From: Patescibacteria group bacterium
Lineage (GTDB): Bacteria; Patescibacteriota; Patescibacteriia; SCPX01
Direction of reading: 5' to 3'
DNA length: 40,423 nt
Assembly: GCA_004298615.1 (NCBI GenBank)
Contig: SCPX01000066.1
Location: 1 to 40,423 of the forward strand
Shown here in pieces: positions 11,293-13,676 of this stretch. The position numbers were made by a program, and so were the translations under genes. The notes below the pieces were generated by a model. That model worked only from the letters and a program-made list of their open reading frames with translations, had not been told where the DNA came from and made no database searches. Position 1 is the stretch's first letter. Every line of letters starts with the position of its first letter.

Positions 11293-12363
11293 TTATTTTT
11301 TAATGAGTTCCTCAATTACTTCTATTAATTTGTCAGTAAATTCGCCCCATTCTTTTAATTTATATGTTGCAAAATGTTCTTTCCAATCGTTTTGTAATTT
11401 AAGTCCGGTTTTTTCTTCTATTAGTTTCCCAAATAAATCTCTATACTCCTCGGTATTTTTAGACTCATGCAGCCAATGGAAATTCAGACTTAGCACACCA
11501 TTTGAACGAACGGTAATAATTGACTTATTTTCACTTATCTTTTCAACGACGGGATTAAACGATCCTCTAGTATTACCAGTCCCCCAATAAATTATGGAAT
11601 TGCCCTTACAAAAGTTATACAATTTTTTGATAGAATCTAGTTCCTTGCCGCTAAAATTCTTATTAACTTCATTCATGAATTGCTCTTCATCCCAGACTTT
11701 TCTTTTAGAACTAGATCTTATTATATCCTTCTTCACCTCCGCTCCGAATATTCTAGGAATTATAATCTCGTATGTATCATGCTTGTAATATTCAAGCTCC
11801 ACGGCATAGATATCAAATTGGCTGTTTTGGTTGACATAAAGGATTAAGTCCTTAAGTCGGGCATCAAGACTATCCATTAGAATAACAAAATGGAGAACGC
11901 CGCCGCTTAAATTGTTTTTGACCGAATCAAGATGTTGACTTAGCTCTTCATCGGATAATCCGAAGTATTCTTGGAGTTTTTGGTTGAGCGGGATTTTGAA
12001 TTTTTTTTGGACGCCATCGTCAAGAATTGAAATAAACTCACTGGAATCCCCCGAGTGTTTCCAGAGCGCCGCGCCGTAATCAAGCGCTTGCGCGATAACC
12101 GTGCGCTTGTCCGGATTTTTATACAGTTTGGTTTCTACGATGTAGATCTCCCCGTCTTTATCTATACCGATCGCGTCAATGGGTCCGCTGTTTGTCGGAA
12201 ATTCGCGCGCGAGAATGAGCAATTTGATATCTTCTTTGATGTCGTAAAGAGGGATGCTCTCCGGATTTTCATGGATATACCGTTGAAGATCATCTTCTTT
12301 GTCAAAATCCGACTTGTCCACTCGTACCGCGTTTTTACCGTTTTTGGAAATAATGATTGACAT
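11293..12363 (-). CDS. PD-(D/E)XK nuclease family protein (DUF91-like)
   Basis: A 356-aa protein whose first 100 residues form a restriction-endonuclease-like fold: E-rich helix 1 (DKEDDLQRYIHENPE), GPIDAIGID with D63, YIVETKL with E77-x-K79, and AQALDYGAAL with Q92. This D...ExK...Q set is an intact PD-(D/E)XK active site of the NucS/DUF91 type. The C-terminal half (about 225-356) includes SIIYWGTGNTRGSFNP and a Trp-rich FHWLHE segment, and looks like a separate recognition domain. It is the first gene of the accessory island and begins 43 bp past the broken tRNA-Gln copy. A role in defence or repair is inferred from the fold and the neighbouring DUF262/DUF1524 nuclease. Confidence 0.82.
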   Translation of the reverse strand: MSIIISKNGKNAVRVDKSDFDKEDDLQRYIHENPESIPLYDIKEDIKLLILAREFPTNSGPIDAIGIDKDGEIYIVETKLYKNPDKRTVIAQALDYGAALWKHSGDSSEFISILDDGVQKKFKIPLNQKLQEYFGLSDEELSQHLDSVKNNLSGGVLHFVILMDSLDARLKDLILYVNQNSQFDIYAVELEYYKHDTYEIIIPRIFGAEVKKDIIRSSSKRKVWDEEQFMNEVNKNFSGKELDSIKKLYNFCKGNSIIYWGTGNTRGSFNPVVEKISENKSIITVRSNGVLSLNFHWLHESKNTEEYRDLFGKLIEEKTGLKLQNDWKEHFATYKLKEWGEFTDKLIEVIEELIKK

Positions 12364-12405: not shown

Positions 12406-12499
12406 CTGCGGGACTAGGATTCGAACCTAGATTAGCGGATTCAGAGTCCGCTGTCCTACTTCACCCCGCCAAAGGCGGGGCAAGTTAGACGATCTTATT
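12406..12499 (-). pseudogene. tRNA-Gln(CTG) pseudogene with palindromic insertion
   Basis: The 3' half is a normal tRNA: anticodon arm GCGGA-CTCTGAA-TCCGC, T arm CTAGG-TTCGAAT-CCTAG and 3' acceptor strand TCCCGCA, the last two identical to the intact copy next door. The D stem (GTCT/GGAC) also survives. The 5' acceptor strand reads AATAAGA and cannot pair with TCCCGCA, and a GC-rich hairpin of about 26 nt fills the D loop. The anticodon stem differs from the intact gene by compensated changes, so the copy once evolved as a working tRNA before it was damaged. Confidence 0.8.
12458..12485. repeat. Palindromic insertion (hairpin) in the tRNA-Gln pseudogene
   Basis: ACTT-ca-CCCCGCC-aaa-GGCGGGG-c-AAGT: a 7-bp GC stem (12464-12470 / 12474-12480) with a 3-nt loop and an outer 4-bp stem. 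It interrupts the D loop. GC-rich hairpins of this form look like dispersed small palindromic elements of CPR genomes (inference from memory). No second copy was noticed in this window. Confidence 0.7.
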
Positions 12500-12516
12500 T
12501 TCATTCCTTTCCAGAG

Positions 12517-12587
12517 CTGCGGGACTAGGATTCGAACCTAGATGACCAGATTCAGAGTCTGGTATCCTACCATTAGATGATCCCGCA
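12517..12587 (-). tRNA. tRNA-Gln (anticodon CTG)
   Basis: A complete 71-nt cloverleaf: acceptor TGCGGGA/TCCCGCA, D arm with AATGGTA loop, anticodon stem CCAGA/TCTGG around loop CTCTGAA (anticodon CTG, codon CAG), and T arm CTAGG-TTCGAAT-CCTAG. The discriminator is G and CCA is not encoded. It begins 6 bp after the dnaX stop on the same strand, so it may be processed from the dnaX transcript. The damaged copy lies 17 bp downstream. Confidence 0.95.
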
Positions 12588-12593
12588 ATAATA

Positions 12594-13676
12594 TTATTCG
12601 CTCGTCAATTCCACTATCGCCATTTCTAAAGGCAGTTGCGGAATGTCCACTAATTTCATCCGGCCCTGGGCGATGATCAAATTGTCCAAAATTTTTACCA
12701 ATTGCTTTTCGGTTGATTTTTCCGCCAGAGTGATTAACTCTTTTTCCGCTTCAATTTCCACATCGAAAAATTCGGTCAATTCTTGGGCGCCGGCGGATTT
12801 CAATACCATTAACTTGCGGGAAAATTCAATCAATTCTTTCAATAACTCTCCCGCATCCGTGCCGCCGTCAATGGCTTCATTTAAAGTAAGGATCGCCTGA
12901 CGCGCATCTTTTTGAATTATGCCGGAAAGAATTTTCAGGAGCTGATCGGTTGATTGCCTGGGCAAAATCACATCCACCGTTTCATCGGAAATTTTATCAT
13001 CGCCAAGCGAAAAAAGTTTCCCTAAAATTCCCTCAGCGTCACGGAAAGATCCGCCCGCGGCTTTGGCCACTCTTTTTAAGCCGTCATTTGAAATGATCCG
13101 TTTTTCTTTTTGGGAAATTTCCGAAAGCCTTTTGACAATGTCCTCAATTCCGGCGCGTGAAAAATCAAAACGCTGGCACCGGGAAACAATGGTTTTTGGG
13201 AGTTTGTTTATTTCCGTGGTGGCAAGAATAAAAATCGCGTGCTTGGGCGGCTCTTCCAGAGTCTTCAGCAAAGCGTTGAAAGACTCGGTGGTCAGCATAT
13301 GCACTTCGTCAATTATATACACTTTGTACGGAAACACAGATGGAAGAAATCTGACATTTTCCCGCAAATCCCGGGCTTCTTCAATGCGACGATTAGACGC
13401 ACCGTCTATTTCAATCAAATCAATCGCCCGATTTTCCTGCATTGCCCGGCAGTTATCACAAACCGTGCATGGTTCGCCATTTTTTTGATTCAGGCAATTA
13501 ACCGCTTTGGCGAAAATCCTGGCAGTCGTAGTTTTTCCAATTCCCCGCGGCCCGCAGAAAAGATACGCATGCGCGATGGATTTCTCCTCAATTTCATGCA
13601 TCAGAGTCATCTTGATGTGATTTTGCCCCGTGATCTCGGAAAATTTTTGAGGACGGTATTTTCTGTATAAAGTCAT
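12594..13676 (-). CDS. dnaX: DNA polymerase III subunit gamma/tau (gamma-only form)
   Basis: This 360-aa AAA+ clamp-loader ATPase opens the sliding clamp for the replicative polymerase. Motifs are Walker A GPRGIGKT (42-49), zinc module C61/C70/C73/C76, Walker B with sensor IIDEVHML (121-128), LATTE and the SRC arginine-finger motif (165-167). Domain III helices follow and the protein ends near 360, so the tau C-terminus that binds DnaB and the polymerase is absent. No slippery A-run programmed frameshift is needed or seen. The leader carries dense inverted repeats, and tRNA-Gln follows 6 bp after the stop. Confidence 0.95.
   Translation of the reverse strand: MTLYRKYRPQKFSEITGQNHIKMTLMHEIEEKSIAHAYLFCGPRGIGKTTTARIFAKAVNCLNQKNGEPCTVCDNCRAMQENRAIDLIEIDGASNRRIEEARDLRENVRFLPSVFPYKVYIIDEVHMLTTESFNALLKTLEEPPKHAIFILATTEINKLPKTIVSRCQRFDFSRAGIEDIVKRLSEISQKEKRIISNDGLKRVAKAAGGSFRDAEGILGKLFSLGDDKISDETVDVILPRQSTDQLLKILSGIIQKDARQAILTLNEAIDGGTDAGELLKELIEFSRKLMVLKSAGAQELTEFFDVEIEAEKELITLAEKSTEKQLVKILDNLIIAQGRMKLVDIPQLPLEMAIVELTSE

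Follow-up and report, generated by a model that had tools for sequence, protein, structure and literature searches.

A broken tRNA-Gln gene with a hairpin in its D loop in a Patescibacteria genome, a probable member of a recurrent family of tRNA-loop elements

In the window analyzed here, meaning the whole 40,423-nt stretch of contig SCPX01000066.1 from a Patescibacteria group bacterium, an intact tRNA-Gln gene (copy 1) is directly followed by a broken one (copy 2). We consider it probable, at roughly 0.6, that a small palindromic element from a loop-specific family struck the D loop of a tRNA-Gln(CUG) gene, of which copy 2 would be the dead remainder on the downstream side. As part of the same reading, and with the same confidence, members of this family would disable the tRNA gene that they enter, leaving an intact tRNA with the same anticodon inside or beside it. 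By sequence comparison, the ends of the copy 2 insert and its position in the D loop match inserts in other tRNAs, both in the same genome and elsewhere in the phylum, and intact tRNAs are found between or beside the halves of broken ones with a fixed polarity. Judged from these loci, the case of copy 2 is one member of a recurrent family of tRNA-loop elements, and that such hairpins recur in broken tRNAs adjoining or enclosing an intact tRNA for the same codon suggests a small mobile element of a kind not described before.

Results

Anatomy of the two tRNA-Gln copies

The features of the locus are as follows.

12594–13676, minus strand: dnaX-like clamp loader gene, immediately preceding copy 1 (Pfam DNA_pol3_delta2, E 1e-44)
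12516–12587, minus strand: copy 1, intact tRNA-Gln, anticodon CTG (ARAGORN tRNA-Gln(CTG); Rfam RF00005, 62.7 bits)
12500–12515, minus strand: linker between the copies, about 16 nt, too short for an ORF (sequence)
12406–12499, minus strand: copy 2, tRNA-Gln(CUG), anticodon CTG, directly after copy 1 (sequence)
12493–12499, minus strand: AATAAGA, where copy 2 should have its 5′ acceptor strand (sequence, and a fold without acceptor stem)
12485–12494, minus strand: retained 5′ D-arm segment of copy 2, GATCGTCTAA (start near tRNA position 6–10, recurring at other loci)
12459–12484, minus strand: D-loop insert of copy 2, CTTGCCCCGCC-TTT-GGCGGGGTGAAG, in place of TGG (sequence and motif scan; ends match the genome's own tRNA-Asn locus)
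12464–12480, either strand: core of the insert, a perfect 7-bp palindrome, CCCCGCC-AAA-GGCGGGG (sequence)
12406–12458, minus strand: remainder of copy 2, with the 3′ D strand, anticodon arm (CTG), T arm, 3′ acceptor strand and discriminator

The sequence, coordinates and anatomy of copy 2 were as the preliminary description of this DNA had given them, with the 5′ acceptor strand lost, the anticodon and T arms intact, the D stem good and a palindrome in the D loop. Where TGCGGGA would be needed as the 5′ acceptor strand AATAAGA is present instead, giving only two Watson–Crick pairs and one wobble pair out of seven against the 3′ strand TCCCGCA. The predicted RNA fold of copy 2 (−37.9 kcal/mol, z −4.3) consisted of a single long hairpin made up of the D stem and the insert, an anticodon arm and a T arm, with the acceptor stem absent. 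The tRNA prediction that had been proposed for both copies also set them apart, as ARAGORN run on the window called copy 1 only, with no call for copy 2, and as copy 2 scored 34.7 bits with the Rfam tRNA model, compared with 62.7 bits for copy 1, and this only because the model mistook GCGGG of the hairpin for a 5′ acceptor strand. Copy 2 thus has neither a 7-bp acceptor stem nor a predictor call with a normal D loop (G18–G19), and it is not a plausible tRNA. It is 89% identical to copy 1 over 54 nt, and relative to that copy its anticodon stem differs by compensated changes at two pairs (C-G to G-C and A-T to G-C) and its D stem at one (A-T to G-C), in agreement with the earlier suggestion, made from the anticodon stem, that copy 2 was formerly a functional gene.

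The insert, in full CTTGCCCCGCCTTTGGCGGGGTGAAG (12459–12484), is a 26-nt hairpin, and on the plus strand the palindrome comprises ACTT (12458–12461), CA, CCCCGCC (12464–12470), AAA, GGCGGGG (12474–12480), C and AAGT (12482–12485). It had been described as an insertion, which was correct with regards to its location in the D loop, but since the conserved TGG of that loop (G18–G19) is gone it must be regarded as an insertion-replacement rather than a pure insertion. The linker between the two copies holds neither an integrase nor a GIY-YIG ORF, and the dnaX-like gene abuts copy 1 so closely that there is no space for a host 5′ tRNA fragment upstream. Downstream of copy 2, a 356-aa protein without a Pfam match is encoded at 11293–12363 on the minus strand.

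Hairpin ends and broken tRNAs in the same genome

The pattern CCCCGCC-N3-GGCGGGG occurred exactly three times in the 1.15-Mb genome of the window (G000), once in copy 2 and twice in ordinary terminators (C58:26667 and C68:10761), and the core alone is therefore uninformative, whereas the ends of the insert are informative. This identical 7-bp core is also what speaks for the hairpin being a transcription terminator or attenuator reused after copy 1, an explanation that we nonetheless find extremely improbable, as the transcribed strand has no following U run (GGCGGGGTGAAGTAGGAC) and as both the D-loop location and the conserved CTTG/TGAAG ends would be left unexplained. An ordinary terminator alone was rejected, because the two terminators share only the core while the flanks and the D-loop position are conserved. 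Palindromes with the shape of the copy 2 insert, allowing at most two mismatches, numbered 17 in the genome, and the full motif TTGCCCCGYC-N3..33-GGCGGGGTRAA occurred once.

Scanning the same genome with AAATTTNGGCGGG revealed arm pairs flanking tRNA genes. At the genome's own tRNA-Asn the layout is AA/CTTGCCCGCC..intact tRNA-Asn..GGCGGGTGAAG/CAGAGC, with the locus in full reading TTCCGGTGTAGCTCAA / CTTGCCCGCCCAAATTT ... intact tRNA-Asn ... AAATTTAGGCGGGTGAAG / CAGAGCAGCTGACTG..., so that a broken tRNA-Asn is interrupted in its D loop by an element having the ends seen in copy 2 (CTTG...TGAAG), with an intact tRNA-Asn between the arms; the T loop of this broken tRNA-Asn holds another hairpin. 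At tRNA-Val(TAC), Ala(TGC) and Met, reverse-complement ends (TTCACCCGCC ... GGCGGGCAA) enclose an intact tRNA within the anticodon loop of the broken copy, and broken pieces also adjoin tRNA-Arg(CCG), Glu(TTC) and Ser(GGA), with about 8 of the 45 tRNA loci of the genome being affected. Paired stem changes between the broken and the intact copies, seen for Val, Ala and Met as well as in the window, indicate that both were formerly working genes and not fresh duplicates.

That inverted repeats generally flank tRNAs for their processing was rejected as an explanation, since CCCGCC arms were present at only a few of the 45 tRNAs and in every case inside a broken one. A general dispersed repeat was rejected as well, since the double-hairpin pattern described below had a single occurrence here, inside the T loop of a broken tRNA-Met. 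The Y1_Tnp profile (PF01797) gave no match in G000, on which ground a RAYT/REP system was rejected. Short GIY-YIG ORFs were found at four places elsewhere in the genome, two of them beside tRNAs. One such ORF lies between tRNA-Ser(GCT) and tRNA-Ser(TGA) (G000:C4:2519–3036) and one lies 73 nt after tRNA-Gly(GCC) (C11:23397).

The same hairpin in D loops of other genomes

Searching the genome and its relatives for the palindrome, as had been proposed, gave eight sites with the exact motif TTGCCCCGYC-N3..33-GGCGGGGTRAA in 5 of 380 genomes of the phylum, with none for a reversed control, all of the relatives searched coming from outside the window genome's own family. Besides the window, four of the seven sites were in D loops of broken tRNAs (Gly, Thr, Thr and Thr) adjoining intact tRNAs, and three were outside tRNAs. 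The D-loop hosts were tRNA-Gly(CCC) and a tRNA-Thr in G525, and tRNA-Thr(CGT) in G518 and G365, with the insert flanked by constant D-loop bases, either CAG or TAA before it and TA after. Taken together with further loci, D-loop inserts were seen in copies of tRNA-Gln, Thr, Gly, Asn and Val. That the same insert, with the same ends and at the same point of the D loop, is found in other tRNAs and genomes argues for a real element and not noise, as anticipated when copy 2 was first described as a dead tRNA copy that had received a small palindromic element beside an intact gene.

In G518 and G365 an intact tRNA-Thr is followed by a GIY-YIG ORF, then by a tRNA-Thr starting from TTAGCTCAGC, without 5′ acceptor strand, then by the hairpin and the remainder of that tRNA. 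The ORF runs into the D-arm piece and hairpin, where it has its stop codon, and the arrangement equals that of the window with an ORF added in the linker. Pfam assigned the G365 protein to GIY-YIG (E 4e-12) and confirmed GIY-YIG also for two proteins from tRNA-Gln loci. Versions of tRNA-Gln lacking the acceptor strand and having D-loop hairpins were present in G039, G192 and G137, and the start of the copy-2-type remainder, at about tRNA position 6–10, was the same in six loci (the window, G039, G192, G137, G518 and G365), a shared point that random decay would not give. These results bear on tandem duplication followed by decay, whereby copy 2 would descend from an old duplication, its acceptor strand having been lost and an unrelated GC hairpin acquired. 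The adjacency and similarity of the two copies would fit that explanation, as would the commonness of GC hairpins in these genomes, exemplified by the 17 palindromes mentioned above. However, the insert ends CTTG...TGAAG and the D-loop position recur in tRNA-Asn, Val, Gly and Thr at other loci, and the identical 5′ boundary at six loci together with the strict fragment polarity described below also speak against it. We thus regard it as unlikely, and plain tandem duplication and decay of copy 2 is already disfavoured.

The acceptor strands had different fates in different hosts. In the tRNA-Gly host of G525, which has a second break in its anticodon loop made by an element holding an intact tRNA-Gly, the acceptor strands GCGGGTA / TACCCGC are still paired, and those of a tRNA-Val host in G052 still pair despite a whole interrupting tRNA. 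Relatives having a D-loop insert together with a conserved acceptor stem had been named in the preliminary description as counting against its interpretation, and on this point the loci are divided, the stem being kept in these two hosts and lost in G518, G365, G039, G192 and the window. Such retained pairing would agree with an intron-like or otherwise functional RNA, a reading under which transcription proceeds through the interrupted host tRNA, the insert, whether or not it contains a nested tRNA, is then either excised or retained, and the resulting RNA serves some function; so would the fact that the arms remain complementary within each insert although their sequences differ between loci. 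Against this, a search of the window and 16 loci at Rfam gathering thresholds gave tRNA only, with no group I or group II intron core, the window copy lacks both the 5′ acceptor strand and G18–G19, and several hosts have T-loop hairpins and mismatched stems, making a role of that kind distinctly unlikely.

A pattern requiring 85–115 nt between the D-loop arms gave two matches in the 380 genomes, both in tRNA-Val anticodon loops and neither in a D loop, and is thus too strict for counting. At one locus (L406, G551:C22) a single broken tRNA-Val contains two different intact tRNA-Val(TAC) genes, one in the D loop and one in the anticodon loop. Carriage by viruses was rejected, as viral contigs gave zero matches for either hairpin pattern and the phage matches were ordinary tRNA-Gln.

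Polarity of tRNA-Gln fragments and association with GIY-YIG ORFs

For tRNA-Gln we surveyed 113 distinct loci of the class with flanks of up to 1.5 kb, using a cutoff for partial copies of E 0.002 per locus. Partial tRNA-Gln copies were found at 34 of the 113 loci, with about 0.2 loci expected by chance, although this 30% rate is not a population estimate because the sample was drawn by similarity rank. All fragments having a 5′ end were upstream of the intact tRNA-Gln (20 of 20), all those having a 3′ end were downstream (14 of 14), and breakpoints fell in the D, anticodon or T loop in 27 of 34 cases (29% expected, P 2e-9). Such polarity and loop breaks are the pattern that an intact tRNA nested in a broken one would leave. 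With acceptor loss and a D-loop hairpin recurring in at least five other loci, and with this polarity, the earlier notion of a one-off accident, tolerated through a nearby spare copy, was not upheld.

The same data concern the possibility that the locus is the relic of a tRNA-integrated island, with the block from D loop to 3′ end as att, copy 1 as the restored tRNA, copy 2 as the distal att fragment and the body of the island deleted. An intact tRNA followed by a 3′ fragment downstream is the usual layout at att sites of integrative elements, and the 3′ blocks are identical between the copies in G039, G192 and G365. There is, however, no integrase between the copies, 5′ fragments upstream of intact tRNAs are not produced by att sites, and loop-internal hairpins are foreign to the att layout, and we consider such a relic improbable.

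A GIY-YIG ORF within 700 nt, always on the same strand, was found at 12 of the 34 loci with fragments compared with 3 of the 79 without (Fisher P 2.6e-5). One of the halves expected of the broken tRNA was missing at some loci, and nested repeats could in places be due to misassembly; the nested architecture recurs across independent assemblies, including contigs of 460–860 kb (G192 and G138). Two loci had further arrangements. At L094 (G032:C4:13600–15000) tRNA-Gln is twice nested, with inverted-end elements in T loops, one within another, and at L092 (G029:C52) two identical 372-nt units, each with a tRNA-Gln carrying an anticodon-loop palindrome and a GIY-YIG ORF, precede an intact tRNA-Gln.

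A related double hairpin in T and anticodon loops

Of 240 genomes of the class, 29 contained a double hairpin, GCGCC-N3-GGCGC-N3-CGCC-N3-GGCG, with 53 sites in total and again with none for the reversed control. Among the 33 sites that were read, 23 had an intact tRNA no more than 700 nt away (tRNA density would lead one to expect an estimated 6% or so), with typical contexts in broken tRNAs being GGTTC-hairpins-GAATCC in the T loop and TTT-hairpins-GAAGC in the anticodon loop. Scanning GTDB genomes for the double hairpin with its flanking bases, which bias that scan towards tRNA loops whereas the class scan is unbiased, gave 106 sites on 94 contigs, 76 of them within 500 nt of a tRNA. These were mostly from Patescibacteria, and also from Ignavibacteria, Acidobacteria, Bacteroidetes/Chlorobi, Omnitrophota, Margulisbacteria and one Nanoarchaeota bin.

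Double hairpins outside recognisable tRNA copies were also observed (L278, L285, L288 and L306), often at TTT^GAA-like sites, which suggests that insertion favours certain sequences. Tandem repeats of tRNA 3′ ends having a double hairpin in the T loop were found in an Ignavibacteria bin (3 × 105 nt for tRNA-Asn and 2 × 151 nt for tRNA-Pro) and, as two tandem tRNA-Arg 3′ ends each with such a hairpin, in a Magasanikbacteria bin; these repeats (L319, L327 and L352) resemble the rtT repeats of E. coli.

Discussion

A mechanism can be proposed that would account for the window. The hairpin element would be mobile, as the sequence comparisons suggest, and at sites of the window type its right end would consist of a mimic of the 5′ D arm followed by the hairpin. 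Insertion would leave the part of the tRNA from D loop to 3′ end on both sides, whereby copy 1 would combine the 5′ part of the resident tRNA with a second 3′ part, thus staying functional, and copy 2 would be the D-arm mimic with the hairpin and the old 3′ part, without acceptor strand. The D stem is self-consistent in either copy, and the fusion therefore requires that copy 1 underwent one compensatory change afterwards. Some copies of the element encode short GIY-YIG nucleases, which may cut tRNA genes and drive insertion, as their association with fragments would allow, and the window copy would be an ORF-less form, possibly moved in trans. The cell would then depend on the supplied tRNA, and the element could become fixed since its loss would be harmful. 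Speaking against this reading is that the element in the window has no ORF, that no host 5′ fragment is found upstream of copy 1, that three of the seven other exact sites lie outside tRNAs and that two ordinary terminators of the genome have the same hairpin core.

More tentatively, and with less than even confidence, the loci may together represent a new class of minimal bacterial mobile element, in which a hairpin may be accompanied by a tRNA and a GIY-YIG nuclease. Such an element would enter the loops of tRNA genes, kill the gene and make the cell depend on the supplied tRNA, giving a nested tRNA-within-tRNA architecture across Patescibacteria and other phyla. Genes for tRNA are usually viewed as docking sites for large islands, and here it is the tRNA genes that very small hairpin elements appear to capture, the broken gene having nested in it or beside it an intact tRNA with the same anticodon. 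If true, this would give a simple path to tRNA gene replacement and addiction in streamlined genomes, would account for the GIY-YIG genes abutting tRNAs in these bacteria, and would mean that tRNA annotation in these bacteria overlooks dead and nested copies. In the searchable literature, the coverage of which is incomplete, we found no description of such a family of tRNA-loop hairpin elements.

Several known systems share features with these elements. Rickettsia palindromic elements (RPEs), which insert into genes, and REP/BIME repeats are likewise bacterial palindromic elements, but those described here have few copies per genome and are position-specific in tRNA loops. Integrative elements attaching at tRNA genes also leave an intact tRNA at one end and a tRNA fragment at the other, whereas the present ones are tiny, lack an integrase, have broken 5′ parts upstream as well and carry loop-internal hairpins. 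In the rtT repeats of E. coli tyrT, an intact tRNA is likewise followed by a tRNA 3′ end repeated in tandem, neither loop hairpins nor a nested tRNA being known in them. Homing endonuclease cassettes of the Allomyces atp6 type restore their target gene. Another known case of homing is that by GIY-YIG enzymes in phage T4 (PMC2988022). The resemblance is that several of the relatives have a GIY-YIG ORF adjoining a broken target and a restored copy. Unlike in those systems, the target here is a tRNA gene, the ends are hairpins and many copies, including that of the window, are ORF-less. As expected of mobile palindromic elements of the kind of double-hairpin elements (DHE), repetitive hairpin-forming elements (RHE) or RPEs, the same palindrome was found at unrelated loci and inside otherwise recognisable genes. 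The DHE and RHE of fungal and sponge mitochondrial DNA (PMC2800124) are, like the elements studied here, short and GC-rich, form single or double hairpins in which the stems are constant and the loops vary, reside within RNA genes and are probably mobile; they are dispersed and free of cargo, whereas those found here are insertions in tRNA loops with or beside an intact tRNA of the same anticodon, in bacteria.
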